Shown: in pieces, positions 161-18,336 of the stretch
How positions within the stretch are numbered: the first letter of the stretch is position 1
Layout of the letters: each line of letters starts with the position of its first letter
From: a virus
Virus record (IMG/VR): IMGVR_UViG_3300023179_003483
Coordinates: 1-23,088 of that record
Reading direction: 5' to 3' (one strand)
DNA: 23,088 nucleotides
Translations under genes and position numbers: made by a program
The notes under the pieces: model-generated
Seen by the model: only the letters and a program-made list of their open reading frames with translations
Database searches by the model: none
Told to the model about the DNA's origin: nothing

Positions 161-856
161 CTATTTTGATTTATCAATAATTATATTATTTTTATCAATT
201 TTTTGTTTTTCTGCCATTTTTTCAGATTGTTTGTTTTTTTGAGTTTCGGGCATTTCTTTTGCTTTTTTTTCAGATTGTTTCTTTTTTTGGGATTTAGCTT
301 TTTCTTCTGCCTTTTTTTCTAAAATAATATTTGGTTCTACCTTTCCATCATTTTTTTGTTTTTGTTCTAATTTTTTTAATTCTGCTTCTTTTCTTTGAGA
401 TTCTTTTTTTCTTTCTGCTTCAGAACCTATCAAATCGTTTGGATATTCATAATTATAAACAATAACAGAACGAATATTTTTAAAAAGAAATGTTCTATAC
501 CCCTCTTGTAATAATTTATTTTTAATTTTTGAGGTATATACTCCTTTTGAATTTTTTATAAAATCCAATTTTGCTAATTCTAATTTTTTAATTCTAGCGG
601 TTGTTGTCATTATTTCTTTAAAATCATTTGATAATTTACCAAATATTTGTTCCTTTAAATAGTTTAAATCTAAACAATGAAAGTAATTTTTGAATTTTGG
701 TTCTAAAACAAGCACCCAATAATAATTTTTTTCACCAGAAACTGTAACATATTCTACACGGGCTACCATTCCCCTCTCCAAATACATTTTGTTTAGAGGT
801 GTGGGATCACTTAATCGTTTTAAGTGCTGACCTATGTATATTCTTTTAAACGGCAT
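161..856 (-). CDS. Hypothetical phage protein with Lys/Glu-rich coiled-coil tail
   Basis: This 231-residue protein has two visible parts. Residues 1-145 form a compact, mixed-composition domain beginning MPFKRIYIGQHLKRL, with aromatic strands such as YYWVLVLEP and YRTFLFKNIRSVIVYNYEY. Residues 146-231 are almost entirely K, E, Q and S, with repeated heptad-like KKQSEKKAKE and KNKQSEKMAEK units, consistent with a long helix or coiled coil. Small phage proteins with this kind of N-terminal domain occur in marine T4-like phages as hypotheticals, from memory only. The start overlaps the upstream glycosyltransferase by 11 bases, implying translational coupling. A scaffold, tail or DNA-associated role cannot be chosen from sequence alone. 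Confidence 0.8.
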   Translation of the reverse strand: MPFKRIYIGQHLKRLSDPTPLNKMYLERGMVARVEYVTVSGEKNYYWVLVLEPKFKNYFHCLDLNYLKEQIFGKLSNDFKEIMTTTARIKKLELAKLDFIKNSKGVYTSKIKNKLLQEGYRTFLFKNIRSVIVYNYEYPNDLIGSEAERKKESQRKEAELKKLEQKQKNDGKVEPNIILEKKAEEKAKSQKKKQSEKKAKEMPETQKNKQSEKMAEKQKIDKNNIIIDKSK

Positions 857-2213
857 CTATTTTTTTCAATTCAGGTAGTTTTATTTTTGGTGGTTCGTTT
901 GTTTCACTAACCTTTTTAAGCTTTGGTAATTCAATCTTTTTAAGTGTTGGTAGTTTTAAACCAACCATTTGAGGAGCGGAGTCTGCCCCATACTTTTCCA
1001 AGTATTCAGATAACTTTTCGGTCATTTTATCAAAGGTAAAGTTATCTTTTGCATACTTACGATTCTTTCTGGATAGTTCTAAATACTTATTGTAATTTTC
1101 GTAGATATCCTTCATATACCCAGCTGCTTCGCTTATATTGATTTTAAACCATTTAGAACCTTTAATCAACCAATCATTCACAGCTGATTGATGTATTTCT
1201 TCTAATTCCCCACTAACTAACACATTAAACCCATTATCCAAAAAGTCCATATGCCCACTCCATTTAGGAGCAATGATTGGTTTACCACTTATCATTGCTT
1301 CTAATAGTGGTCTGCCGAATCCTTCACCCTTTGTGAATGATAGATGGGCTTTAACCTTTGTATGGTTGTATAGGGAGTTCATTTCAATATCTGATAAATC
1401 ACCACTCAATAAATAAATATTAGGTAGTTTTGATTCCCCGCTTTCTTTTCGGACTTGCTCTTTCAACGATTCAATTCTTTTTCGTATTTCGTGAGTATCC
1501 ACATAAGAAGGCGCCATTAAACTTGTTTTTAAAACAAGAGCCGGTGGATTCTTTTTACCTTTGAATGATTGTAGAAAGGTATATATCATCGCACATACAT
1601 TCTTACGGTCTTGCCCACATTCGCCAGGCAACCAATGTCCTACGAATAGAAAGCAAAACTCTTCTGAAACATCACTCAATACATCTTTTACAGATTGTTC
1701 AACAGGCAGCTTATTATCGTATATCTGCTCATCAAACCCTTCAAAGAGAACTTCAACCGGCTTTGTTAATCCTAACTCACCAACCTTTTGCTGAGTTTTT
1801 TCATCCTGCATATCATACTTTACCTCCAACCCAGATTTAGCGTGTTTGGATGATACCAAAGTTAGATTCATTCTATTACACCCCTCAATAAATTGAGGTG
1901 AAGCCTGATTTGTTTCAATCCCCGCAGTTATACCAATGTTATAGTTACCCATAGGTTGGAACTCATTTGGTATTGTAATTTGTATCCAAACATCAGGCTT
2001 TTGATTAATCTGCCCTAAAACCAATCTACTCACCAAATCATCATCTATTGGTGATATCAAAGCGTTTTGAGGTGTAGCACCCCACCTTTGAGGTAAAATC
2101 TTAACATCCCAATCCGGTCTTGCTTTTATCAAACTACGGACAAAGTCACGGCTACGCGCACCGTATCCACTACGGGTTGCTATTGGGCAACTAACTATAC
2201 ATAACTTCTTCAT
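846..2213 (-). CDS. GT-B fold glycosyltransferase (family 4-like) with LPxLKKI C-terminal tail
   Basis: This 455-residue protein has a retaining GT4-type organisation. The N-terminal Rossmann half begins MKKLCIVSCPIATRSGYGAR, where the glycine-rich SGYGARSRDF loop fits an acceptor/donor loop. The C-terminal half carries the signature KGEGFGRPLLEAM (about 295-307), the GT4 EX7E-type nucleotide-sugar binding motif, followed by GKPIIAPKWSGHMDF. It probably transfers a sugar from a nucleotide donor; the acceptor is unknown. Residues about 417-455 are an added tail with three copies of a (K/E)LPxLKK(I/V) motif, not part of the GT fold. The start overlaps the stop of the next GT gene as ATGA (4 bases), so the two are coupled. 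No signal peptide or membrane span is seen, so it should act in the cytoplasm. Confidence 0.9.
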   Translation of the reverse strand: MKKLCIVSCPIATRSGYGARSRDFVRSLIKARPDWDVKILPQRWGATPQNALISPIDDDLVSRLVLGQINQKPDVWIQITIPNEFQPMGNYNIGITAGIETNQASPQFIEGCNRMNLTLVSSKHAKSGLEVKYDMQDEKTQQKVGELGLTKPVEVLFEGFDEQIYDNKLPVEQSVKDVLSDVSEEFCFLFVGHWLPGECGQDRKNVCAMIYTFLQSFKGKKNPPALVLKTSLMAPSYVDTHEIRKRIESLKEQVRKESGESKLPNIYLLSGDLSDIEMNSLYNHTKVKAHLSFTKGEGFGRPLLEAMISGKPIIAPKWSGHMDFLDNGFNVLVSGELEEIHQSAVNDWLIKGSKWFKINISEAAGYMKDIYENYNKYLELSRKNRKYAKDNFTFDKMTEKLSEYLEKYGADSAPQMVGLKLPTLKKIELPKLKKVSETNEPPKIKLPELKKIDAV

Positions 2214-3631
2214 ACTTTTACTATTTCAAACTTTTTACGAGGTTTCCAATTTTCAAATACCGCCTCCATTGATTCAATAAAGGTTTCACCCATTTTTTCA
2301 GCTGTCATATTACCAACACCATTTACAAATGCGTGCGCTAACATCCCCGCTTTTGCTCTTTCATCTGCTGGGGTATCATACCATTCCTTAATTGCGTTTC
2401 CAAAATCTCTGAAATCACATCTATCATCAAATATATAAGGTGTCAATGGTGAACCTTGCAATGAACGATTTGATGGCCATACCGGCTTTACCCATTCACC
2501 CCAAGTCAATCTACTCAAATAATCAGAACGAACATCATGCAATGAACCCAATTCCAAATAATCATCTTCGGTTAAGAACTTACCATCCATTTTAAATCCA
2601 CATTGGTCTTGCAATCCACCAGTAACATTTACCACAATTGGTAAACCAGCTCTCATCCCTTCACAAGTACTCAATCCAAACCCTTCGTTGGATGTAAGGT
2701 TTACAATTATATCGCCTGAGTTGTAATACAGGTTTAATTCTTCAGTTGATATGCCAGGATTTGTAAATACATATTTACCACCATTGGAACAATTCTTAAT
2801 AACCTCAGGTATATCCGTTCCATTTTCATCTACAGGTTGTGTGTGTAAAAACAAACAAACCTTATCACGCTTCTCCTTTGGTAATTGTTGAACAAAACTA
2901 TCAAACGCAATAATCAAATCACCTGGCTGTTTTCTACGAATATTTCTATTGTTCCACAACACCACAAATTCCATCTTATCAATACCATACTTTTTCTTAA
3001 ACTCCACCAACTTTTCGTTATCTTTTGGTAGTGGTTTAAAATGTTCGGATACACCATGCGGTACATACTTAAATGTCCAATCAGGTAAATCCATACCATA
3101 CTTTTTCAAACACCTTTTGTTGATACCATATGTTTGCTTTGATATCGCCATCAGCAAATCACAACTTGCGTAATAAGGTGAATTCCACAATGGGTCGGGC
3201 AAGTCATCCCAAATATTATAATAAAATATTGGAATCATCTGCCTGATTTCATGCTCCATCTGATACAACCATATCCAATATCTTGGGTCGGTAAAGTGTA
3301 GAATAGCATCAGGCCTTTCCACATTTATCAATTGACGAACAATATCAGGGTTTCCATATCCATTGGTGCAGTATATTTTTAGATATGCATCCTCAACACC
3401 AGTTTCTTTTGCAGCATCCTGCGATACATCTAAAACTTTTCCGTTTTCTGGGTGATTTAATGCAGCACCTAATTGAACCCAATCGTATTTGTGTAGGGTT
3501 TTTAGAACAAACTCTTTTGATTGAGTTGCTATTCCACTAAATAATCTTAAATCATCTGAAAGAAGGAGTATCTTCTTTTTCTTTGGTTTGTTAGGGTCTA
3601 TTTTCCTAAGCTTTGGTAATTTTAATTCCAT
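2210..3631 (-). CDS. GT-B fold glycosyltransferase (family 4-like) with N-terminal LPKLRKI motif
   Basis: This 473-residue protein opens with MELKLPKLRKIDPNKPKKKK, a basic extension carrying the same LPxLKKI motif found three times at the end of the neighbouring GT. The GT fold starts at about residue 21 with ILLLSDDLRLFSGIATQS. Visible GT4 marks are VPHGVSEHF (190-198), a WNNRNIRRKQ donor-side motif (226-235) and NEGFGLSTCEGMRAGLP (315-331), the E-rich nucleotide-sugar motif. It likely uses a nucleotide sugar; the acceptor is unknown. It begins the three-gene block running to the left edge and is separated from the SLOG gene by a 37-base AT-rich spacer. The start is ATG in an A-rich context without a clear Shine-Dalgarno site. 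Confidence 0.9.
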   Translation of the reverse strand: MELKLPKLRKIDPNKPKKKKILLLSDDLRLFSGIATQSKEFVLKTLHKYDWVQLGAALNHPENGKVLDVSQDAAKETGVEDAYLKIYCTNGYGNPDIVRQLINVERPDAILHFTDPRYWIWLYQMEHEIRQMIPIFYYNIWDDLPDPLWNSPYYASCDLLMAISKQTYGINKRCLKKYGMDLPDWTFKYVPHGVSEHFKPLPKDNEKLVEFKKKYGIDKMEFVVLWNNRNIRRKQPGDLIIAFDSFVQQLPKEKRDKVCLFLHTQPVDENGTDIPEVIKNCSNGGKYVFTNPGISTEELNLYYNSGDIIVNLTSNEGFGLSTCEGMRAGLPIVVNVTGGLQDQCGFKMDGKFLTEDDYLELGSLHDVRSDYLSRLTWGEWVKPVWPSNRSLQGSPLTPYIFDDRCDFRDFGNAIKEWYDTPADERAKAGMLAHAFVNGVGNMTAEKMGETFIESMEAVFENWKPRKKFEIVKV

Positions 3632-5329: not shown

Positions 5330-5549
5330 TTTGTAAGTTTTGAATTTTTCTATCTAAGTACCACTTTGCTTTTAATAAATCTTCTAATTCTTTATCTTGG
5401 TGTTTCTTTCCGGCACGAGATATGTATTTGACTGTATTACCCAAATGAAAATCTAAATCCCATGCTTCTATAACCTTAATTGCCTCATAAGGATTATCTA
5501 CCCCACCATAATGATTAGGGTGGTTTACCATTTCTTTACTTTGCTGCAT
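5319..5549 (-). CDS. DUF3310 family protein (T7 gp1.7-like)
   Basis: A 76-residue protein with the DUF3310 signature: VNHPNHYGGVDNPYEAIKVIEAW, LDFHLGNTVKYISRAGKK and DLLKAKWYLDRKI. The family includes T7 gp1.7, reported as a nucleotide kinase, so a role in nucleotide metabolism is possible but not proven for this short stand-alone copy. The open frame reaches 5588, but the extra N-terminal residues do not match the family. The ATG at 5549 is preferred; the ATG at 5531, giving MVNHPNHYGG, is equally consistent with the domain and starts just after the upstream stop. It overlaps the next small gene by 11 bases. Confidence 0.85.
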   Translation of the reverse strand: MQQSKEMVNHPNHYGGVDNPYEAIKVIEAWDLDFHLGNTVKYISRAGKKHQDKELEDLLKAKWYLDRKIQNLQNGK

Positions 5550-6015
5550 CTTTATACATTTTATCAATTTGAGAATCTTTAACGCCATACTTTTTTATAA
5601 TACTTCTAACCTCATCCTCTGATAATATCTCTAAATAATCATCAGCTTCTCTGCTTGAGACCTCAAAGTACTTACAAATATACGAAATAATTTCTTCAGA
5701 AACAACATTTCCGCCAGATTTTTTTATGTATTTATCAAAAGTTTTTTTCTTTGGTAAAAAATCATAATATACCTTATACACCTCCCTAGCACCCATTTGA
5801 CCATTGGTGAATCTTTGAACTTCATTTACTAAATCAATGAATTCAAAATTCATACTCAACCAACGATTGGCAAGATAAACCGAAAACGATTTTTTATCAA
5901 CATCCGAAAGGGATTCCCATTTCGTTTTGTTTTCTTTCAAACCACTCAAATGGTCAAAAAGAGTTTTAGCTTTTATCGTTCCTTCAGAACTATCACTTTT
6001 TTTCTTCGGGGGCAT
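5536..6015 (-). CDS. 62: Clamp loader small subunit (T4 gp62-like)
   Basis: A 159-residue protein starting MPPKKKSDSSEG. The body reads like the T4 gp62 family: TLFDHLSGLKENKTKWESLSD, then KSFSVYLANRWLSMNFEFIDLVNEVQRF, REVYKVYYDFLPKKKTFDKYIKK and a C-terminal YFEVSSREADDYLEIL helix. gp62 has no ATPase motif; it joins gp44 to load the gp45 clamp at primer ends. Position supports this, since clamp and gp44 lie just upstream in the order 45-44-62 known from T4, here with two extra genes inserted. An upstream ATG at 6063 would add 16 residues but overlap the zinc-ribbon gene by 71 bases. The ATG at 6015 has AAGG nine bases away and a 23-base overlap. Confidence 0.82.
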   Translation of the reverse strand: MPPKKKSDSSEGTIKAKTLFDHLSGLKENKTKWESLSDVDKKSFSVYLANRWLSMNFEFIDLVNEVQRFTNGQMGAREVYKVYYDFLPKKKTFDKYIKKSGGNVVSEEIISYICKYFEVSSREADDYLEILSEDEVRSIIKKYGVKDSQIDKMYKDAAK

Positions 6016-6274
6016 CGAATAAACCTTTTGGTACAAATTTTGGATGAACAGTTCCACACTCATTACAAACTACCACTGGGATAGGAATCATTGATGCTTT
6101 CCCATTTGGAGATTGAATCGCAGGTAGTTCTTTGAACATCATTTTTTCTTCAAAAAAGATACTATCACAATTTGGACAAGTAACTGTTTGAAGCTTCATC
6201 GGGTCTACATTGAACTGAATCGGTTGTTCAGGTTGTTGGGGTGCTCCCCCTTTAAAATCTACTAATTTTGCCAT
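5993..6274 (-). CDS. Small zinc-ribbon protein between clamp-loader genes
   Basis: A 93-residue protein with two CxxC knuckles, TCPNC (Cys33, Cys36) and VVCNEC (Cys70, Cys73), separated by a hydrophobic hairpin IPIPVVV. This is a zinc-ribbon arrangement. The first 25 residues are a flexible, proline- and glutamine-rich lead. Function is not recognised. Zinc ribbons of this sort bind nucleic acid or act as small adaptors. It sits exactly between the genes for the two clamp-loader subunits, overlapping the small subunit by 23 bases and following the large subunit after a 13-base gap, so a link to the loader or to late transcription is a reasonable guess. AAAGGA precedes the ATG. Confidence 0.82.
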   Translation of the reverse strand: MAKLVDFKGGAPQQPEQPIQFNVDPMKLQTVTCPNCDSIFFEEKMMFKELPAIQSPNGKASMIPIPVVVCNECGTVHPKFVPKGLFDAPEEKK

Positions 6275-6287
6275 TTTTATCCTTTAT

Positions 6288-7205
6288 TTACATTAAAATA
6301 TTTACAAACATTGCCATTACATTTATTTCTTTATCCACCACCAACGAATCCTTATATTGCGCTTCGGCTATATTAACAATTGTAGTTCCAACCTTATTTC
6401 CCGCATACTCATCCACCCTTTCATATAGGGTTGAATACAACTTTGTATAATCTCTTACTTTTGAATCTGCCAATATTTGACGAATCTGAGTAAACTTACT
6501 TTTGGTATCTACTCCACTTTTTAAGATATCCACAATTTTTTCGGAATAGGTTGATTCAATGCTGGATTGTTTATCAATAACCAACCTACCATTAATAACC
6601 TGCCGTTGTGCGGCGTTTATTACCCTACGAATATCGGGATATCCACTATTAACAATAACCGCAAGGTCCGGCATCTCAAATTGAATACCCTCATTAATTA
6701 AGATATCATTCAACCTTTTAGCCACATCTTTTTTAGTTGGTGGTATAATTTCAAATGTTTGACATCTACTTTGAATTGGGTCAATAACCTTTTCAGGATA
6801 ATTACAAGTCAATATAAACCTCGTACTTTTACTAAATGTTTCCATTAGATTACGAAGAGCTGCTTGTGCATCTCTCGTTAGGTAATCTGATTCATCCAAT
6901 ATTACTACCTTCCAAGTCTTAAATCCAACCGATGCTGCAAATCCTCTGATTTTCTCTCTTAAAGTATCAATACCCCTTTCATCGGATGCGTTGATATAAA
7001 GATAATCACAATCAATAGCATTTACTATAATTTTTGCTAATGTAGTTTTACCAGTCCCTGCTTCACCATGTAGTAATAAGTGTGGGACATCGTTGTTTTC
7101 TATATAAATATTAACCTTTTGTATGATATGTTCATTACCAACATACCCTTCAAGTCCAGACGGCCTATACCGTTCTACCCATAAGCTATTTTCACTATTA
7201 CTCAT
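6288..7205 (-). CDS. 44: Clamp loader large subunit, AAA+ ATPase (T4 gp44-like)
   Basis: A 305-residue AAA+ protein of the replication factor C/gp44 type. It begins SLWVERYRPSGLEGYVGN, the usual RFC-box start. Motifs are Walker A GEAGTGKT (47-54), Walker B ILDESDYLT with Asp-Glu-Ser-Asp at 104-107, sensor 1 LTCNYPEKV (132-140) and the SRC motif (146-148) that carries the arginine finger. It hydrolyses ATP to open and close the sliding clamp, working with the gp62-like protein encoded two genes downstream. The start is coupled to the preceding DUF4338 gene by an ATGA overlap, with AGGA close upstream. Length is near that of T4 gp44 (319 residues). Confidence 0.95.
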   Translation of the reverse strand: MSNSENSLWVERYRPSGLEGYVGNEHIIQKVNIYIENNDVPHLLLHGEAGTGKTTLAKIIVNAIDCDYLYINASDERGIDTLREKIRGFAASVGFKTWKVVILDESDYLTRDAQAALRNLMETFSKSTRFILTCNYPEKVIDPIQSRCQTFEIIPPTKKDVAKRLNDILINEGIQFEMPDLAVIVNSGYPDIRRVINAAQRQVINGRLVIDKQSSIESTYSEKIVDILKSGVDTKSKFTQIRQILADSKVRDYTKLYSTLYERVDEYAGNKVGTTIVNIAEAQYKDSLVVDKEINVMAMFVNILM

Positions 7206-8419
7206 CTTCCTACTTCTTTTAAATATGTTTCTTTTGCTTGTTCCCAGCTCATTCCTATAATATCTACATAAAAAAGTGCTTCGGGTTTAATTCTCCCTTC
7301 ATCAAACAGGGTGGTGTATCTGCGAATTGCTTTGGGTTTCCACCAATTTATAGTATATTCATCACCTTTAACAAACTTATCCTTCATAACCAACTTATCT
7401 TCTTCTATCTCCCCCTTCAGAAATTCGTTACCATTTTCGTAGAATGGTGCAAGATACACCCCCCGTTTGAATCCGTGATCGTAAGTATCAGATTTGATAC
7501 CAAGCTCTCTATAGATTTGATGTATGATTTTTTGTTTTATCCCACTAACAGGCCCGTTTCTTTCGTAACCCATATTCGCACCATTCCTTTCCCTCTCTTC
7601 GGTTATCTCCCTCTTATACCAATCTGAATGGTTTTCTTTCAACCATTGATGCCACGGGTCATACACACTATCATCAGGCTTAGTACTAATCTTACCCTTA
7701 CTTTCTCCCAAAGTTTTAAAATGCGGAATACCATTATATTGAGAGTGAATTCCATACAACGAAGTCGTTCCTAATGCTACCAAAACATCATCATACTTCT
7801 TTTTCCAATAATTCCTAACAATTGGTGATGTAGCAAGTGCGGCAATTAACTTACCACCTAAAAAGTTGTAACCAAAAGGTTGTGTAGAAACAATCGTAGT
7901 TGCGATACTCGTATTGTTTAACTTCCCCTGCTTAAACTTATTATCCTTACTCCACCCAATGTAGGAATCTCTTACACCCAAAGATGTAATATCAGAACCC
8001 AATGAAACCTGTCCTAAAACTTTACCGCTAACTCTATCCTTTATCCATATCTTTACATTTCGGCCAGGATTAGCAACAAACTCCATTGTATGGATTAGTT
8101 TTCGGACTTCTGTCCAGCGAGTAGATTCTTTTGGATTATCATCAACGATTTCTACATAAGGTTCTAATGATTCAATTTCTTTTATCGTTAGTTCTTTGTT
8201 GTAAATATCCGTTGGAAACCAAAGTGAATCATAGTGGGTAGCAATGGTTGCCTTTTTGGGCATGGTGTTTTTAAGGTCACCATTCCATTCTTGCCACTTT
8301 TTGTATAAAGTCTGCTCTTCAACTGACATTGAGGATAGATAGTTCAAATTATCAATGAACTTCTTCTTTTCAACATCATAGTTGAATTCAGGCTTCGCTG
8401 GTTCAGTATCCCAAAACAT
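7202..8419 (-). CDS. DUF4338 / DruA-like protein inserted in the clamp operon
   Basis: A 405-residue protein. The core at about 110-245 reads VANPGRNVKIWI, VLGQVSLGSD, VRDSYIGWSKDNK, LNNTSIATTIVSTQPFGYN, LGGKLIAALATS and ALGTTSLYGIHSQYNGIPHFKTLGESKG. That order (a GR...W strand, LG.V..GS, RD.YIGW, a P.GYN.LGGKLLA helix, then TSLYG.S.QY) matches DUF4338, the domain of DruA from the Druantia defence system. The molecular activity of DUF4338 is unsettled; its core looks GNAT-like. Residues 1-105 and 260-405 are added regions I cannot place. It lies between clamp and clamp loader, one base after the clamp gene and with an ATGA overlap into gp44, so it is co-translated with the replisome. DUF4338 assignment is by motif memory. 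Confidence 0.75.
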   Translation of the reverse strand: MFWDTEPAKPEFNYDVEKKKFIDNLNYLSSMSVEEQTLYKKWQEWNGDLKNTMPKKATIATHYDSLWFPTDIYNKELTIKEIESLEPYVEIVDDNPKESTRWTEVRKLIHTMEFVANPGRNVKIWIKDRVSGKVLGQVSLGSDITSLGVRDSYIGWSKDNKFKQGKLNNTSIATTIVSTQPFGYNFLGGKLIAALATSPIVRNYWKKKYDDVLVALGTTSLYGIHSQYNGIPHFKTLGESKGKISTKPDDSVYDPWHQWLKENHSDWYKREITEERERNGANMGYERNGPVSGIKQKIIHQIYRELGIKSDTYDHGFKRGVYLAPFYENGNEFLKGEIEEDKLVMKDKFVKGDEYTINWWKPKAIRRYTTLFDEGRIKPEALFYVDIIGMSWEQAKETYLKEVGR

Positions 8420-8420
8420 A

Positions 8421-9119
8421 TTATTTCACTTCAACTAAAAAGTATTCTGATTTAAAACCTTCACTCTCAAATGTACATTGTGCCAACCCTGCAGTTGCGA
8501 TTTTTAGATTAGCTGCTTTTGGAGCCCGGTTCGCATTTAGGATTTCTTTCAAATACTTTGCAGAAAATGAAATAGGCCCAACCGAATCTTTGGTACAAGT
8601 ACAATCAACCTTAATAGAAATTCTATTTGAGTTAATCTTTGAATACCCCAAAATAATCTCACCCTTACCATCTTTACATTGGAAGGTAAAAGTATCGGAT
8701 TCGTTCAAAGCACCTTTTGATTTGATGAACCTACTAATAAATTCATCACTTAGGGTGATTTCAGATTCAAAATCAGGCACCTGTTTGATATCCGGCACAG
8801 CAGGAATAACTGATAGGTCAGCCATCATATAGTTCACCGTAGTTGAATTATCGGAGAACTCCAATGCAGCACTTCCCGCAGTTACATTGATATTAGCATC
8901 CAACACACCTAATAGATTTTTGAGTTGGGATGTAGTATAGACACCAAATTCACCATCAGCAAATTCAGCATCTTCAGATGTAACAGTTCCCAATAGGGTT
9001 TTATCATCTGAAATAAATTTAACATTCATACCAGTTTTATCTGATACGATTTTTACCGATTCAATCTCACCACCTAAATTATAGCGGCTTATGAATCCCT
9101 CTAACGAAGTTTTTTTCAT
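8421..9119 (-). CDS. 45: Sliding clamp, DNA polymerase processivity factor (T4 gp45-like)
   Basis: A 232-residue protein of the gp45 clamp type, close to T4 gp45 in length (228). Visible features are two similar alpha/beta halves: the first with YTTSQLKNLLGVL, the second with the interdomain segment VPDF followed by ITLSDEFISRFIKSKGAL, and a C-terminal CTFESEGFKSEYFLVEVK strand typical of this family. It forms a ring on DNA that tethers the polymerase and, in T4, also activates late transcription. Neighbours (gp44, gp62 and polymerase) support this. It has its own promoter at 9142-9173 and an A-rich leader without a Shine-Dalgarno site. Confidence 0.92.
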   Translation of the reverse strand: MKKTSLEGFISRYNLGGEIESVKIVSDKTGMNVKFISDDKTLLGTVTSEDAEFADGEFGVYTTSQLKNLLGVLDANINVTAGSAALEFSDNSTTVNYMMADLSVIPAVPDIKQVPDFESEITLSDEFISRFIKSKGALNESDTFTFQCKDGKGEIILGYSKINSNRISIKVDCTCTKDSVGPISFSAKYLKEILNANRAPKAANLKIATAGLAQCTFESEGFKSEYFLVEVK

Positions 9120-9141: not shown

Positions 9142-9173
9142 ACAATATACGAAATTTTTATCAATTATCCAAA
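9142..9173 (-). promoter_or_regulatory. Bacteroidota-type promoter for the clamp gene
   Basis: On the coding strand TTTG (9173-9170) is followed by exactly 20 bases and TATATTGT (9149-9142), close to the Bacteroidota -33 TTTG / -7 TAnnTTTG pattern. It shares TTTGG and TATATT-GTATA with the promoters at 15165-15196 and 18964-18995. The A-rich leader reaches the clamp ATG at 9119. Confidence 0.6.
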
Positions 9174-9739
9174 CATTTATAGAAAATAATTTTACGATTT
9201 TCACCAGTTGGCTTTACAAACTTTTTAGATAACTCTTCTGAATTATCCCATTTCATAGATGATGATTTGTGTTCGGGTAAGCCTGCTGTAAAACCAATAG
9301 ATTGCCAATTATCTGCTTTATAAACTGCTCCAGTATTACCACCTGCTACAAATGTAATGATATGTTTAAGTTCATCTCCATATTTTTGTTTCCAAGCAAT
9401 CGGGCCTTTTTTTCTCAATTCTTTTAAAACACGAGTTCCTGCATTCTTTATTGATTTCACCATACAAAATCTCCAATTATTACATATTGTGTTGAAAACT
9501 TCTCTATACTCCAACTTACTTAATTGTAACTTATTTAGCAAATCTTTTGGTGGTGGATATACTGAAGAACCTATACCAATCATACCAACAGGCTGAGATG
9601 GAAATGAATCTTCTTCATATATTAACCAATCTATTCTCCTACCAACAGAAGCGTTATGTGGAACATACGAATGATAGTTTTCAATTATTTTTTTAACAAT
9701 ATCTTTTTGAGATTGTGTTTTAACTTCAACTAAAACCAT
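9161..9739 (-). CDS. Small Mom/DruA-like acyltransferase-fold protein
   Basis: A 192-residue protein. Its layout echoes both Mom and the DUF4338 protein nearby: a helix with NYHSYVPHNASVGRRIDWLI (21-40), a strand pair PVGMIGIGSS (50-59), a helix NTICNNWRFCMV (83-94), and ITFVAGGNTGAVYKADNWQSIGFTAG (128-153), the same Y-x-A-x-N-W then G pattern seen in the tandem Mom-like genes at 16782-18336. Mu Mom is a GNAT-like enzyme that alters adenines in DNA; whether this protein does so is inference. The frame extends to a TTG at 9754, but the ATG at 9739 follows the polymerase stop by four bases. It sits between polymerase and clamp. Confidence 0.65.
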   Translation of the reverse strand: MVLVEVKTQSQKDIVKKIIENYHSYVPHNASVGRRIDWLIYEEDSFPSQPVGMIGIGSSVYPPPKDLLNKLQLSKLEYREVFNTICNNWRFCMVKSIKNAGTRVLKELRKKGPIAWKQKYGDELKHIITFVAGGNTGAVYKADNWQSIGFTAGLPEHKSSSMKWDNSEELSKKFVKPTGENRKIIFYKCLDN

Positions 9740-9743
9740 CGTT

Positions 9744-10808
9744 TTAAAATCCAAAAAATTGTGAAGCTTTTTGTAAATTTTTATTTGGTAAATCCCATTT
9801 CATCGCATTATAGAAATCATCTATTTTGTTTTGAAGAGCACCTTCCCAAATAGCATCCAAGTCGGTGTAATCATTAATTATTTTTTCAATCTCCGGCGGG
9901 TCATTCCACCCTGTAAAACCAACGGTATCTAACCCCAAATTGTTTCTTTTCAAATAAACCCACTTAATCTTATCACCATCTTTCATTGGTTCAAATTTAA
10001 ATGGGCATTTGTAGTATTTCAATAGTTGATTATATGCGATGGCTGATTTAACATGTGCAGGTGTTCCTTTAGGGAACTTACCCAATGAATATGTACCATC
10101 ATCATACTTACTTAATTCTTTTACAGCAGAGTTCTTTGCTATATCCTTCTTTGGTTGAGTTTCCATCCCCTCCTTAAAATCCAATATCTTTTTATCAATA
10201 TCACTCTTATTTACCCCCTTTAAGATATCCGATAGAACCTGCTCCATCACACCCTTAAAGTAAGTTGGAAAATCAGAGCGTTTAACATCCAATCCCTTTG
10301 CATCAATCTTATCACAGGGGACGGTGTTATCATTAATAATCCATTGAGCATATCGTTTTTTGGCAACCCAAAACCCAGACTTAGCAATAGTTTCCTGCTT
10401 AATATCAAATCGGTGTTTCTCTATATTGAACAACCTTTTTGACATTACATCATAGGTTTTATTAATATGCTCCTGCACCTCCTTTGCAACTGATAGAATA
10501 GCGGGCACCATTTCCTCATCCGATTGTTCGTTAATAGATGGATTTCTATGCTTTACAAGCGGAAGAGCTGAAAAATACACAGAGTCAGTGTCCGTGTAAA
10601 TGTTGTAATCCCCGTCCGTTCCAATCTGCGAAATGTAATACTGATTCGCAATCTTTTCAGTAGTTTTAATTACCGTCTGCCCCGTAATTGTAACTGCTTC
10701 TGCGTTATCAACATCGTAGAATCTAAACGATGGTAATCCTAATACACCATATAATGAGTTAAGCATAATCTTTTGAACAAGTTGGCGTTGGGAGTAAAAC
10801 TTATACAA
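9744..10808 (-). pseudogene. 43: Family B DNA polymerase, C-terminal fragment (palm motifs B and C, thumb)
   Basis: This frame carries the downstream half of a gp43-like polymerase. Motif B is KIMLNSLYGVLG (Lys13, Asn17) and motif C is YTDTDSVY, whose Asp72 and Asp74 are the metal ligands. The thumb follows, and the C-terminus KASQFFGF looks like the clamp-binding tail of T4/RB69 polymerases. The N-terminal exonuclease and motif A lie in a different frame at 10739-12241. The homologous reading continues upstream of 10808 as KENNKDLYKFY if one A is added at about 10825, so this is a frameshifted single gene rather than an independent start; the only nearby start is TTG. Catalysis needs both halves. 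It could be a true split polymerase, a read-through site or a sequence error. Confidence 0.85.
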
Positions 10809-12241
10809 GTCTTTGTTATTTTCCTTACATACTTTTTCATCAAATCTTTATACTCAACCCTTTTATCAAACCACACATTTAGGATTTCAGGTATTACTCC
10901 CACCTGCTCATTTGAATATATAACCCCATTTGAAGCAACAGAATAATTGTTGGTTTTTATCAACTCATTAAACTCACTATGCACTAATGGTGGTAACTGC
11001 TTCCCTTCATCATCAACCACAACATAAAGTTCAATTTTATTCTTTACATATTCCTCACTCGTAAACCCTTTAACCTTACCAACCTTTGTTTCAGGGCTGA
11101 TGTTCAAACTCATAATAATGGATGGGTATAGGGATGTTAAATCCAAATCATACAACCATTGGTATAAGCCCGGTACAGGCTCTTTTACATACGCACCTTC
11201 AAACTTACCCTCACTATCATCACCTTTCCTTTTTGGTTTGTTAGGAGCAACCCTACCACTTCTACGCAAGAATGTGAGTATCGCACCCTCTAACCACTTA
11301 GATGAAAATAAGAAATCTTCATAAGGAACATGCCCCGCGTGACATATCGCTCTAGCCAAATCAATGAATTGGAGTTTTACATCCAAGTCCACAACCAATT
11401 TAACATCTTCAACATTGTACTCAATGAATCGTTCCAAGTCATCTCGCATCAATTGGTCTAAGTTTCCTGTATATTGAACCTTACCCCTACCCAACTCTAA
11501 CTTTGAAATGGTATCCAGTCGGTAATTAGGAAATTCCTGATAAGTGTAGGTTTTGTAAAGAGCAAGGTAATCTAAGCAAGAAACACCTGCTATCACATAA
11601 CGCTCTCTATTTTTTAGGTAATCTACCTTTCCTATGGGTGATAAGGAATTAGCATTCTTATGCCCTAATACTTTTTTTAACCTATTGTAAAGGTATGGTA
11701 TATCAAAGAAATCAATATTCCACCCAGTTACAATTGTTGGGTTTATTTCCTGCCACTTTTGAAGAAATGCCCACAACAAATCCCGTTCGTTGTTGTATAT
11801 GTTTACCTCTGCACCACCAATAGCTTTGTTCAGTTTAGTATCACCCAAAACATAAACAAAATAATCTCCAGTCGCAGAGTCGTGAGCTGCGATGGAGGTT
11901 ATACTATTATCGGCTTTTTCAACATTTGGGAGACCTGTATTCATCTCCACCTCAATATCAAATGTCAATACAATATTCCCCGTTGAAACATCATCAGATG
12001 TTCCATACTCATCAATCAAAAATCGGGTGTAATCATTTACATCGGATTCATATAGTTCTAAATTGGTATCCTTTTCCCAATAAGTAAGCTTCTTTAAGCG
12101 TTTACCATATATAGAAAAATAAGAACCATTTCCATCAGGTGTGTAGGCGTATCTACTATACTTTTTAATATAGTATCCTTTAACATCATCCCAACAGTGT
12201 ATTGTGTTTGTTTCTTTATCATAGTACAGATTCTGATACAT
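10739..12241 (-). pseudogene. 43: Family B DNA polymerase, N-terminal fragment (3'-5' exonuclease, palm motif A)
   Basis: This 500-codon frame holds the first part of a T4 gp43-like replicative polymerase. Exonuclease motifs are Exo I FDIE (Asp95, Glu97), Exo II NIDFFD (Asn175, Asp180) and Exo III YNVED (Tyr275, Asp279). Polymerase motif A is YDLDLTSLYPSII with Asp367. Homology ends at about residue 475 (DLMKKYV); the final 25 or so residues are out-of-frame translation after a one-base deletion. The remaining palm and thumb are encoded at 9744-10808. AAAGGAAGGA lies just upstream of the ATG, which overlaps the glycosyltransferase gene by 23 bases. Full-length product would be about 830 residues, near the T4 value of 898. 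Confidence 0.88.
10823..10828 (-). other. Frameshift site in the DNA polymerase gene
   Basis: On the coding strand the sequence reads TATGTAAGGAAAATAAC. One extra A after GTA would give TAT GTA AAG GAA AAT AAC AAA GAC, i.e. YVKENNKD, and join motif A upstream to motif B downstream in one frame. As written, the upstream frame runs on to a stop at 10739 with a nonsense tail. No clear slippery heptamer is present. Confidence 0.8.
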
Positions 12242-13346
12242 CTAATATCCTTCCTTTAAAATTGTTTTCTATATCCCAGCTTTTTAGTTGGTTTTCCCAA
12301 CTCAATTTTGAAACCCATTTTGTTAAATCGGGTCTATCAACTTTTTTATCTAATAAATCATTTATCATTTGTTCAAATTCGCTCTTATTATTATACAAAA
12401 AGGGGTATTCATTTCCAACCATTTCTGGATAACAAAAATCATTTGGTAGTAAGTATGGAACTCCTCTGCTTAAACCATCTGTTGTAGACATTGACCATGC
12501 GGAATATTTTTGGAAACACCCTACACCAAAATGTGCTTTTGATAGTTGGGTTAAATAAACTTCCCTATCAGCGTGTCCTATGTATTCTGTATATGGTTTG
12601 GGTAAATCTCTCAATGTAGTCAATACTTTAAAGTCTTTTCTTTTTTCCCATAAATTATCCATAATTTCAAAAAACCAATCAGCCCCAGTGTAAGCATCGT
12701 TTCGGTGATTAAACACTATTGTCTTTTCTCTATACCCAGCTGATGGTTTGTATTCATCTGCACCCAAATACCATGGTTGAATAATCTTATCTAATTTTTC
12801 AATTATATGGGGTTGAAAATCTTCGGATGCCCTTTTCAGTATTAAATCTTTTACCCATTGTGAATTTACACCACACACCCTCATATTTAACATACCTCTT
12901 ATATTTCTCCAAAAAGAATTATCATCTCTGGCGCCATTATCAGGTATTTCCCACCAATGCGAATATCCTATAATTGGTTGAGTTTTGTTGTAAATACGAG
13001 TAATTTTATATTCATTCGTCCATTCGGGTAAATGCGACCATATTAAGTTAAATTCACCATTGTATTTACCAATAATTCTATCAAAAAATTTATGTGGATA
13101 ATCTACCCGCATTTTTGGTGGAAAGCAATCCAGTCCATCCATTTTCATTAACTTAACATTCGGATACTCAAACTGATTGATAATACCCGGATGATTATTC
13201 AAATCGGGGTAGGGTAGAATCCATTCCCATTCTTTACCAATTTGAGTGTTATCTAAAAAAGATTTGAACACCAATAGGAACGAATCCCTATTGATGTCCT
13301 TTGCCATCCCAAAGTTTGTGTAATTAGGTATTATTAATGCTCTCAT
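12219..13346 (-). CDS. GT-B fold glycosyltransferase (third in window)
   Basis: A 375-residue protein with a divergent GT-B layout. Residues 1-200 form an N-terminal Rossmann-like half with LIWSHLPEW and IIGYSHWWEIPD. The second half has VFNHRNDAYTGADWFFE (211-227), like the donor-domain opening strand, and YSAWSMSTTDGLSRGVPYLLPN (281-302), where a GT4 nucleotide-sugar motif usually lies; Asp290 and Glu308 replace the canonical paired glutamates, so the catalytic scheme is uncertain. It follows the 597-residue protein after three bases and overlaps the polymerase start. Acceptor unknown: modified DNA bases, virion proteins and host glycans are all possible. It is unlike the two left-hand GTs and lacks the LPxLKKI motif. 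Confidence 0.75.
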   Translation of the reverse strand: MRALIIPNYTNFGMAKDINRDSFLLVFKSFLDNTQIGKEWEWILPYPDLNNHPGIINQFEYPNVKLMKMDGLDCFPPKMRVDYPHKFFDRIIGKYNGEFNLIWSHLPEWTNEYKITRIYNKTQPIIGYSHWWEIPDNGARDDNSFWRNIRGMLNMRVCGVNSQWVKDLILKRASEDFQPHIIEKLDKIIQPWYLGADEYKPSAGYREKTIVFNHRNDAYTGADWFFEIMDNLWEKRKDFKVLTTLRDLPKPYTEYIGHADREVYLTQLSKAHFGVGCFQKYSAWSMSTTDGLSRGVPYLLPNDFCYPEMVGNEYPFLYNNKSEFEQMINDLLDKKVDRPDLTKWVSKLSWENQLKSWDIENNFKGRILDVSESVL

Positions 13347-15785: not shown

Positions 15786-15801
15786 GTCCAATTTATTGGA
15801 C
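15786..15801 (-). terminator. Possible terminator hairpin at the end of the homing endonuclease gene
   Basis: GTCCAA, a four-base loop and TTGGAC form a six-pair stem overlapping the stop codon of the GIY-YIG gene. On the coding strand it is followed by ACTTTTC, a short T run. It is weak by bacterial standards but would separate this gene from the promoter-led gene downstream. Confidence 0.4.
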
Positions 15802-16722
15802 GGTCGCATTATTTGATGGAAACAAGTTATTTAACTTATTACAATTATGAAAATGGTATCTAGTCATATTAGGCCCTTTACCGGTTTTACCACAATTTGG
15901 ACAAATAACTTCTATATGACGAGCTTTTACTTTATGCTTCCAAGTTCTACCTTTATTGGGATGTTCGTTGTTCTTTAACCACTCTGTTTGAGCTTTGCTT
16001 AAATTTTTTTTATGAGTATCTGATAATTTGGTATCTTTATTCGGAGATATTCTTCCCTTAGTATTTTCAGAAATTTGCTTTTTTGTTTCTTCGGAATGCT
16101 TTTTACCTTTGAATCCATTTATATTTGATTTATGCCACCCCACTCTAGCATTTTTCATAAGTGTTTTGCTTTCTTCCGAATGTTTTTTACCAACCATTGG
16201 TGAATTGTTGGTTTTATTCCACTCTTTCATTTTTTCAGATATAATTTTTTTAGTTTCTTCAGAGTGCGTTTTACCTTTAAATGGTGAATTGTTGGTTTTA
16301 TTCCACTCTTTCATTTTTTCAGATATAATTTTTTTAGTTTCTTCAGAGTGCGTTTTACCTTTAAATGGGTTTCCAAATTTATAATTTCTTAATTTTGTTT
16401 GTTCGCCAATATGGCTCAAAACATTGGGTGAAAAAATGTATCCACCATCACCACCTGTTGTTAAATTATACCCACACTTATTTGAAGCATATTCAGAAAT
16501 AAATTTAATTTCAGCCGCATTTAATTCAGCATTGTTGTTACACTCATAAATAACTTCCCAAACAAAATTATCATTACCATATTTTTTTAATGCGCTATGA
16601 AAATACAATTTTGGATTTTTTGATTTTTTAATATGCTCACATTTTCTAGACTCTAATGTGTTTTTAGTTTTACCAATATACACTTTACCATTAATAACAT
16701 TTGTTACTTTATATATAATCAT
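15793..16722 (-). CDS. GIY-YIG homing endonuclease with NUMOD3 repeats and C-terminal zinc finger
   Basis: A 309-residue protein in three parts. The GIY-YIG nuclease spans about 1-90: IIYKVTNVINGKVYIGKT with Tyr4 and Tyr15, Arg26, and catalytic Glu71 in NAAEIKFI, at positions like those of I-TevI. Next come several NUMOD3 repeats of the form PFKGKTHSEETKKIISE, two of them identical. The C-terminus has a zinc finger with Cys274, Cys277, His290 and Cys294, the pattern shared by many phage homing endonucleases. It would cut DNA at a specific target, helping its own gene spread. It stands free between genes with no intron seen, and is preceded by a 59-base spacer. Composition is more AT-rich than its neighbours. 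Confidence 0.93.
   Translation of the reverse strand: MIIYKVTNVINGKVYIGKTKNTLESRKCEHIKKSKNPKLYFHSALKKYGNDNFVWEVIYECNNNAELNAAEIKFISEYASNKCGYNLTTGGDGGYIFSPNVLSHIGEQTKLRNYKFGNPFKGKTHSEETKKIISEKMKEWNKTNNSPFKGKTHSEETKKIISEKMKEWNKTNNSPMVGKKHSEESKTLMKNARVGWHKSNINGFKGKKHSEETKKQISENTKGRISPNKDTKLSDTHKKNLSKAQTEWLKNNEHPNKGRTWKHKVKARHIEVICPNCGKTGKGPNMTRYHFHNCNKLNNLFPSNNATVQ
16198..16365 (-). repeat. Perfect 84-bp tandem duplication inside the homing endonuclease
   Basis: Two copies of an 84-base unit (16198-16281 and 16282-16365) are identical by eye, encoding a duplicated 28-residue NUMOD3 unit. Neighbouring NUMOD3 repeats in the same protein have diverged, so this duplication is recent. Confidence 0.85.
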
Positions 16723-16781: not shown

Positions 16782-17585
16782 TTACCAAAAGTGGGTCTCT
16801 ATACTTTCTTCTGGTGGATATGTTAGATGATGTTCAATGGGATAATCATATGCAGCAACCTCCGTTGGATACGGAAATTCTTCATGCTTCATTCGTTTTA
16901 ACATATCTCGCCGTTCCCTCTTATTTTGAGCAAGTATTTGTATATATCGGTGTTTTTCAGGCTCACGCCTTCTCCAAAATTCTGCATACCCACTTTTACC
17001 AATCTCTCGTTTTAAGTGCTCTAAATTGTTACTGCCCCACCTACTAAATACTGTCCTACTATGTATCCACTTATAAGGGTTTTCTGTCAAAGATATCCCG
17101 TAGTTCGGCATCAGCGCAAGGTCGCTAGAAATTCCCTCATATCGCCAGTTGGTTGCTTTATAAATACCACCCAAATGCCCCATACCGTTATCAGCATAAG
17201 ATATTAATAGTTTGATTTCCTTATCATTTTCTCTGAACCATTTGAATGTTTGCCCAATAGCATAACTTTCAATATTTGAACCATACCCGTCATGCACAAA
17301 TAATCGGGTCAACTCTAATGCATTATCTTTGGATAACCCCTCACAAATTGAGGTTGCTGCTTTCGCACCGACCGGAAATCCGTAGATTGCGCATCCTATC
17401 AACTTTTCTGAATTACCAAATACATCGTTTTCATCACCCCTATAAAATATTCCGAAAGCGTATCGGCACATTGTCCATGCGTGAGTGTAGTGATAGGTTA
17501 CAATCATATCCTTTGCTATTGACTTAGCAATTGGATGTACCCTAACACGGCTTACATCGCAGTATTCCTTACCTTCAATTTTCAT
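16782..17585 (-). CDS. Mom-like DNA-modification acyltransferase homologue (copy 2)
   Basis: A 267-residue protein resembling phage Mu Mom. Visible conserved blocks are IVTYHYTHAW (28-37), KLIGCAIYGFPVG (61-73), LELTRLFVHDGYGSNIES (90-107), LLISYADNGMGHLGGIYKATNWRYEG (126-151) and a closing HSRT segment. Mu Mom is a GNAT-fold enzyme that turns adenine into N6-carbamoylmethyladenine, protecting phage DNA from restriction. Activity and product here are inferred. The C-terminal 60 residues are rich in arginine and lysine (WRRREPEKHRY), fitting DNA contact. It is a clear paralogue of the gene immediately upstream, with which it overlaps by 11 bases. It is followed by a spacer and the homing endonuclease. 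Confidence 0.82.
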   Translation of the reverse strand: MKIEGKEYCDVSRVRVHPIAKSIAKDMIVTYHYTHAWTMCRYAFGIFYRGDENDVFGNSEKLIGCAIYGFPVGAKAATSICEGLSKDNALELTRLFVHDGYGSNIESYAIGQTFKWFRENDKEIKLLISYADNGMGHLGGIYKATNWRYEGISSDLALMPNYGISLTENPYKWIHSRTVFSRWGSNNLEHLKREIGKSGYAEFWRRREPEKHRYIQILAQNKRERRDMLKRMKHEEFPYPTEVAAYDYPIEHHLTYPPEESIETHFW

Positions 17586-18336
17586 TTGATATAGGTTCTA
17601 ATTTGTGTATCTCTTCCGCAATAATTTCACTTACCTTTGGATAAGGTTGTAGGGGATGTTTTATACTATTCAATATTTTCTTTCTATTCTTTTTATCCAA
17701 TATGTAAAAGTATCTATGTTTTTTTGGTTCTCGCCGAATCCAAAATGGTTTTGTAATTACTTTTTGTATTTGCTTTGGGTCATTTGTTCCATACCTAACA
17801 AACGATGTTCTACTATGAAACCAATCGCCATCCTCATCCCACCTAAAACTCCAACTATCAGTCCATCGTAAATTATTACCCTGATACAACCAATTGGTAG
17901 ATTGATACACCGTTCCCAAATGCCCCTCTTTCGGGTCTGAATACGATATAAGTGCCCTAATATGCGGTGCGTTTTTCTTTAACCAATCAAATGTTTGAGA
18001 AACAAACCAACTCTCAATATTACACCCATACCCATCTTCAATCCATAAGCGGGTCAACTCCAGCACCTCCGTCCGTTCTAAAAGTTCGGATATGGAGGTG
18101 CCAGAATTTCTACCCACTGGGTCACCATAACAGGCAACCCCCACCAACTTTTCATTAACCCCACCGAAAAATTGGTGTTCCCCCTCATCTAAATAAAATA
18201 AACCAATTGAATAACTAACTTTTGTCCATAAGTGGCTGTAGTGATTTTTTACAATCATCTCCTTTGCCACCGATTTACTAATCAATCTTACACAAAATTT
18301 GGATACATCTGAATAGTTTTTACCCTCTACTTTCAT
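17575..18336 (-). CDS. Mom-like DNA-modification acyltransferase homologue (copy 1)
   Basis: A 253-residue protein aligning end to end with the next gene: MKVEGKNYSDVSKF, IVKNHYSHLW, KLVGVACYGDPVG, LELTRLWIEDGYGCNIES, ALISYSDPKEGHLGTVYQSTNWLYQG, HSRTSFVRYG and WIRREPKKHRY. One conserved position differs: SYSD here against SYAD in copy 2. Divergence is large (roughly half of residues differ by eye), so this is an old duplication, likely with different sequence preference or donor. Function is inferred from the Mom family as above. It overlaps the small HTH gene by 17 bases, placing it in the operon that starts with the MazG-like gene. No Com-like zinc-finger activator gene is seen nearby. Confidence 0.82.
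   Translation of the reverse strand: MKVEGKNYSDVSKFCVRLISKSVAKEMIVKNHYSHLWTKVSYSIGLFYLDEGEHQFFGGVNEKLVGVACYGDPVGRNSGTSISELLERTEVLELTRLWIEDGYGCNIESWFVSQTFDWLKKNAPHIRALISYSDPKEGHLGTVYQSTNWLYQGNNLRWTDSWSFRWDEDGDWFHSRTSFVRYGTNDPKQIQKVITKPFWIRREPKKHRYFYILDKKNRKKILNSIKHPLQPYPKVSEIIAEEIHKLEPISNEN

Follow-up and report, generated by a model that had tools for sequence, protein, structure and literature searches.

A DruA-family gene lies inside the replisome operon of a T4-like phage, in a coupled position between the sliding clamp and the large clamp loader subunit, and its product is predicted to adopt a GNAT acyltransferase fold. Among the explanations considered, the one judged most likely, at a little under even confidence, is that this Mom-related GNAT protein, alone or as the replisome-side subunit of a larger enzyme, would acylate bases of the phage's own DNA at the replication fork and thereby protect phage DNA.

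Gene content of the window

The window (the whole stretch of DNA analyzed) is a 23,088-base IMG/VR virus record. In transcription order, its replisome operon encodes DNA polymerase, a short DruA, the clamp, the full-length DruA, gp44, a zinc-ribbon-like protein, and gp62, with a pair of Mom genes (16782 to 18336) further upstream (Table 1). The initial annotation had placed a DruA-like DUF4338 gene between clamp and clamp loader, joined to them by a one-base gap and an ATGA overlap; the open reading frame is real, and both junctions are present, with one base separating the clamp from DruA and 4 bases shared by DruA and gp44. The earlier gene list covered the full-length DruA and overlooked the short DruA gene and the tandem Mom genes. 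Its view that this is not a stand-alone defense gene agrees with the conserved position and coupling described below and with the lack of a Druantia partner among the 14 window proteins scanned with PADLOC.

Table 1. Features of the replisome operon and the upstream Mom gene pair in the window
Feature	Coordinates	Strand	Evidence and remarks
Clamp loader small subunit (gp62-like)	5536..6063	-	PHROG 225, E 7.7e-17
Small zinc-ribbon-like protein, between gp44 and gp62	5993..6274	-	Weak, sub-cutoff Pfam zinc-ribbon matches; conserved position
Clamp loader large subunit (gp44-like)	6288..7205	-	PHROG 168, E 9.5e-84; Pfam AAA
DruA-family (PF14236) protein with predicted GNAT fold, T4-like replisome subfamily	7202..8419	-	405 aa, ATG start
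Sliding clamp (gp45-like)	8421..9119	-	PHROG 223 DNA polymerase processivity factor, E 4.7e-12
Second, single-domain (short) DruA-family gene, between DNA polymerase and clamp	9161..9754	-	PF14236, 33.2 bits; PHROG 1384 Mom-like, E 6.9e-5
Family B DNA polymerase, two overlapping frames	9744..12241	-	PF00136 and PF03104
Mom-family DNA modification protein, copy 1	16782..17585	-	PF25680, 150.9 bits
Mom-family DNA modification protein, copy 2	17575..18336	-	PF25680, 161.8 bits

The window's polymerase has one base fewer than its counterparts in related loci covering the junction between its frames, and an error in sequencing or assembly probably explains the split reading. Since every other locus that spans the junction reads through, a conserved programmed frameshift was rejected. 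A GIY-YIG homing endonuclease gene with five NUMOD3 repeats (15793 to 16722) follows just downstream of the Mom pair, and two group 1 glycosyltransferase genes (846 to 3631) lie downstream on the same strand. Neither an RNA family match nor a tRNA was found in the window.

Family membership and motif residues

A profile search with DUF4338 matched residues 83 to 336 of the protein (254 residues) to PF14236 with 76.6 bits against a cutoff of 27 (E 2.4e-21), and the PADLOC DruA profile also matched (E 5.4e-18). The flanks outside the Pfam match comprise 82 and 69 residues, not the roughly 105 and 145 first reported, and are mostly helical in the predicted model; the short DruA lacks these extra N- and C-terminal helical regions.

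Most of the HY, NNxRF, ETF, and CYRAANW-type residues found in a canonical DUF4338 protein (P0001) differ in all 23 rows of the alignment (A1), with the NN pair retained in the window DruA. The canonical motif was taken from this one aligned protein, because searches for bacterial DruA yielded one locus and two plasmid records, and its status as family defining is our own reading; membership in the family is assigned by the profile match and not by motif residues. The short DruA keeps HY, RFC, and VYxADNW, all at sites where the full-length window protein carries replacements. Because these motifs are replaced, catalysis by the full-length protein may differ or may have been lost. Full-length phage DruA proteins carry a signature of their own (QPxGxNxxGGKL and TTSLYG...SxY) that differs from canonical DUF4338. 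Most positions of the QPxGxNxxGGKL loop are invariant across the 23 rows, and the loop persists with small changes in 13 distant cyanophage and pelagiphage sequences. It presumably occupies the place of the GNAT coenzyme A (CoA)-binding loop. This pattern of residues suggests a pocket that has been re-tooled rather than one that has decayed.

Predicted fold and bridge to Mom

An AlphaFold model built from 23 sequences (mean pLDDT 83, pTM 0.79) supports a GNAT fold for the window DruA. Almost all of the listed Foldseek matches in the PDB were GNAT acyltransferases, ribosomal-protein acetyltransferases among them, at marginal E values (best E 2.8e-3 with probability 0.99; GNAT probabilities up to 1.00), and a PDB sequence search with DruA gave nothing convincing. 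Phage Mu Mom (8bv8) headed the list after reranking with VIA-align (181 residues aligned at an rmsd of 4.3, Z 10.0), with Z scores of 8 to 10 to many GNATs. Since SpeG and other GNATs fall within 1 Z of Mom, the comparison supports the fold class, and the preference for Mom is only suggestive. Three giant-virus proteins in BFVD, from Faunusvirus, Yasminevirus, and Dasosvirus (A0A3G4ZXG3, A0A5K0UAJ3, and A0A3G4ZRA1), resemble the DruA model over 346 to 416 alignment columns (E <1e-3).

At the profile level, hhalign linked DruA to the short DruA (E 9e-10) and the short DruA to Mom (E 7.5e-7). A direct hhalign comparison of DruA with Mom gave no match (probability 1.6%), nor did a search of the full-length window protein with the Mom family profile (PF25680), so the link between DruA and Mom runs through the short DruA as a bridge and through the fold. 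The short DruA itself was left out of the structural comparison, as its model had a confidence of 65 with long stretches below 50. Another short DruA (L083) scored 29.4 bits for DruA and 18.8 bits, below the cutoff, for Mom, and matched the Mom-like PHROG 1384. This gene (3001 to 3564, 61% identity to the window's short DruA) is on a contig, possibly of phage origin, assigned to a Bacilli metagenome-assembled genome from horse feces.

Position and slot content in uncultured relatives

Among the best 80 of 82 IMG/VR relatives of DruA, 68 have it adjoining the clamp, gp44, or both, with other genes intervening on one side in three of them (L055, L061, and L062). The arrangement therefore recurs across T4-like relatives, and the concern that it might be unique to this assembly was rejected. 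In the remaining 12 loci (L056, L057, L063 to L071, and L075) DruA has another context, which includes terminase genes, identified by eye, in L056, L063, and L069. Full-length and short DruA occur together in three such contigs (L065, L069, and L075), and neither a clamp nor a gp44 gene was seen there.

Because this sample had been selected by DruA, a second was started from gp44. DruA is directly upstream of gp44 in 65 of the best 80 gp44 relatives (out of at least 594), the clamp being in view in 57, and 15 of the 80 are without it. A wider gp44 sample of 216 loci, less 69 duplicates and 17 with no clamp in view, left 130 nonredundant gaps between clamp and gp44; in this sample, which is weighted by its three query clades, the gap held DruA in 52 cases, dUTPase in 58, a methyltransferase (MTase)-like gene in 8, a TET-associated glycosyltransferase (TAGT) in 1, a GIY-YIG gene in 1, another gene in 3, and nothing in 7. 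On the gp44 tree, seven changes of slot content are needed, and the starred branches alone force two for the presence of DruA.

Several gp44 relatives nested inside the DruA clade have a TAGT, an MTase-like gene, or a 495-residue gene in the slot. The TAGT (L171) matches PF20691 (E 3e-35) and PHROG 842, HMC glucosyltransferase. PHROG 498, DNA methyltransferase, matches the MTase-like genes of L153, which barely exceeds its Pfam cutoff (27.1 versus 26.7 bits), and of L154, which like L190 has no Pfam match. The 495-residue gene of the L215 group, with no Pfam or PHROG match, is similar (E 2e-12) to a window gene at 12219 to 13346 that has no Pfam match and appears glycosyltransferase-like by eye. 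A homing endonuclease occupies the slot in L175. The neighboring gap between polymerase and clamp holds a short DruA, a Mom gene, or nothing in relatives.

Insertions are found in nearby genes as well. In L104 (2577 to 4126), and also in L006, L010, L026, and L117, gp44 breaks off near its Walker B motif, where an intein-like N-terminal segment and a separate open reading frame precede the remainder of the gene; this arrangement resembles a split intein (E 1.1e-4 for Intein_splicing, below the Pfam cutoff). The C-terminal part of the polymerase contains an insertion of about 1 kb in L003 and L004.

Coupling, selection, and a natural deletion

The distance from clamp stop to DruA start was −1, +1, +4, or +7 nucleotides in all 58 scorable cases, and the DruA stop overlapped the nearest gp44 ATG by 4 nucleotides (45 cases) or 1 nucleotide (13 cases) in 58 of 59. 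DruA is under purifying selection of clamp-like strength: pairwise dN/dS was 0.034 to 0.092 for DruA (window and four relatives), compared to 0.045 to 0.094 for the clamp and 0.065 to 0.085 for gp44 (window and three relatives each).

In two contigs (L078 and L079) the DruA start and last ~89 residues remain in frame, the rest is deleted, and the clamp and gp44 are intact. With two mismatches in 4,124 bases these contigs are effectively one strain. At least this natural variant can therefore do without DruA, barring a copy beyond the ends of the short contigs. The initial description of the gene as locked between clamp and loader was thus too strong, given this deletion and the exchange of the slot's content in related phages.

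Nearly all polymerase C termini in these loci end in A[SA]xFF[GSE]F, and the terminal ASxFFGF peptide is presumably the clamp-binding tail of the polymerase. Neither this pattern nor a PIP-like one was present in the DruA sequences, so direct binding of DruA to the clamp is without sequence support.

Occurrence in phage isolates and with Mom

Relatives of DruA, at 25 to 36% identity, were found in 31 phage records, compared to 722 with a gp44 relative, which makes DruA an accessory gene in phages. Seventeen of the 31 were examined (the remainder are mostly RefSeq twins or near relatives; one of the 17 is unannotated), and all 17 matched PF14236, 16 of them above the cutoff. In 13 cyanophages the distant DruA is flanked by gp44 and gp62, in some cases with small genes intervening; in S-CAM9 and S-PRM1 gp62 is annotated as hypothetical, and its identity comes from position. 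In S-B68 and the pelagiphages Mosig and HTVC008M, DruA is near gp46/gp47-type recombination genes, and a second HTVC008M copy overlaps the end of the DNA polymerase by 4 bases, with UvsX next. DruA genes thus occupy a variety of sites within operons for replication and recombination. The isolate with the nearest gp44, Microcystis phage Mel-JY01, has polymerase, gp44, gp62, and, in the place of the clamp, a gene annotated as hypothetical; it lacks any insert the size of DruA. The short DruA had no match when searched against phage isolates.

Within the gp44 lineage, 26 of 28 records with DruA also carry Mom (PF25680), compared to none of 25 without DruA. Both Mom-less DruA records (L187 and L188) stop a short way upstream of DruA, the usual location of Mom. 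These counts are not independent, because the set includes many fragments and many closely related records, and the independent contrasts on well-supported branches number only two. Mom was found in none of six DruA records with a terminase-type context and in 1 of 17 DruA-bearing phage records searched; HTVC008M, S-SM2, and S-PRM1 are among those lacking it. DruA therefore accompanies Mom in this lineage and occurs on its own elsewhere, and Mom was rejected as an obligatory partner.

Proposed function and alternatives

Under the preferred reading, synthesis of DruA would keep step with that of the clamp and clamp loader, and nascent phage DNA would thereby be marked at or just behind the fork; DruA, or an enzyme containing it as the replisome-side subunit, would transfer an acyl-type group to bases of that DNA, and the marked DNA would resist host restriction or defense. 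The fold class, the short-DruA bridge, slot swaps with DNA modification genes, co-occurrence with Mom, and the conserved loop suggest DNA marking. Counting against it are the replaced canonical motifs, the failed direct match to Mom and the tied Z scores, the scarcity of Mom in DruA-bearing phages elsewhere, the missing clamp-binding peptide, the accessory status of DruA, the small number of independent contrasts, and the fact that dUTPase, a nucleotide-pool enzyme and not a DNA modifier, is the commonest alternative occupant of the slot. The initial annotation had offered a replication-linked or counter-defense job: the former is supported by position, coupling, recurrence at other replisome positions, and clamp-like selection, and the latter would fit by way of DNA modification, since Mom is an anti-restriction enzyme (PMC6483171, accessible text).

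The loss of canonical residues makes a noncatalytic role a real, if unlikely, alternative, in which a GNAT-fold adaptor would assist the replisome or recruit proteins to it, for instance by tethering Mom or the short DruA to the clamp. An adaptor could dispense with its canonical residues, whereas the short DruA and Mom of the same window retain theirs, and the helical extensions absent from the short form, the clamp-like constraint, and the termini preserved in L078 and L079 would suit it. However, strong conservation of the former active-site region, with a distinct signature (QPxGxNxxGGKL and TTSLYG) that is also kept in Kyanoviridae phages lacking Mom, is more like that of a working pocket, and DruA has no clamp-peptide match. 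Acylation of a protein instead of DNA is improbable in our judgment; here DruA would modify the clamp, the clamp loader, or a host protein and tune replication or transcription, as phage Rac-type GNATs do. Proteins or small molecules are the substrates of many GNATs, the structural matches include ribosomal-protein acetyltransferases, and phage GNATs targeting RNA polymerase are described in the accessible part of PMC7824862, but the nearest bridge families are DruA and Mom, and the slot swaps involve DNA- and nucleotide-modifying enzymes.

Highly improbable is a counter-defense decoy, a phage DruA copy that poisons host Druantia complexes. Shared family membership with Druantia DruA and the reported structural similarity between cyanophage proteins and the DruA of Druantia type I (PMC12774648, accessible text) are compatible with a decoy, yet DUF4338 also occurs outside Druantia, such as beside an integrase gene on a plasmid, and tight conservation in replication operons of phages with very different hosts calls for a general function. 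Least credible of all is that DruA is cargo carried along at a site prone to insertions and has no function in the replisome: the slot is variable and also takes homing endonucleases (L175), and related gp44 genes bear intein or endonuclease insertions, but dN/dS values of 0.03 to 0.09, precise coupling at the loci measured, and recurrence at several distinct replisome positions all argue otherwise.

Extending the preferred reading of DruA as a DNA base acylase, the clamp/gp44 operon of T4-like phages may contain a DNA-marking slot in which a GNAT-fold DruA, Mom, TAGT, or DNA methyltransferase is interchangeable, with DruA, acting at the fork, providing a new base acylation in cyanophages, pelagiphages, and the uncultured lineage of the window, and with giant-virus homologs of the same architecture. 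This wider proposal is possible but doubtful. If it were true, the DruA of defense systems would by analogy act on DNA bases too. The searched literature, which mostly excludes subscription journals and so makes for weak absences, contained no paper joining DruA with the sliding clamp, and a biochemical account of DruA activity was not found in it. Because phage DruA sits in the replisome operon, in a slot shared with DNA-modifying enzymes, and is found in culturable cyanophages and pelagiphages, its activity is directly testable; a new base in the DNA of druA-positive phages would establish a further class of DNA hypermodification and hint at the role of DruA in Druantia.

Comparison with known systems

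The window protein resembles the DruA of Druantia type I in its match to PF14236 over 254 residues and to the PADLOC DruA profile, and DUF4338 is a GNAT domain according to the accessible text of PMC10853773. It differs in its location in a phage replication operon, its replaced motif residues, and its extra helical termini, and no DruE-type helicase or other Dru match was found among the 14 proteins scanned in this 23-kb fragment. Phage Mu Mom (PF25680, 8bv8) shares the predicted fold class, the bridge family, and the co-occurrence in this lineage; it differs in giving no direct HMM or profile-profile match, in its conserved residues, and in its absence from 16 of 17 DruA-bearing phage records. 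Mom has also been described in jumbo phages (PMC7824862, accessible text).

TAGT (PF20691) and phage DNA methyltransferases occupy the same clamp/gp44 slot in relatives and belong to other families. The Phold paper (PMC12774648) reports six Synechococcus phages with DruA-like structures and treats the proteins as structural matches of Druantia type I DruA, with replisome position unmentioned in its accessible portion. These proteins are distant homologs of the window DruA, mostly at 25 to 30% identity, with S-PRM1 common to both sets, and their genes lie between gp44 and gp62, whereas the window's lies between the clamp and gp44.
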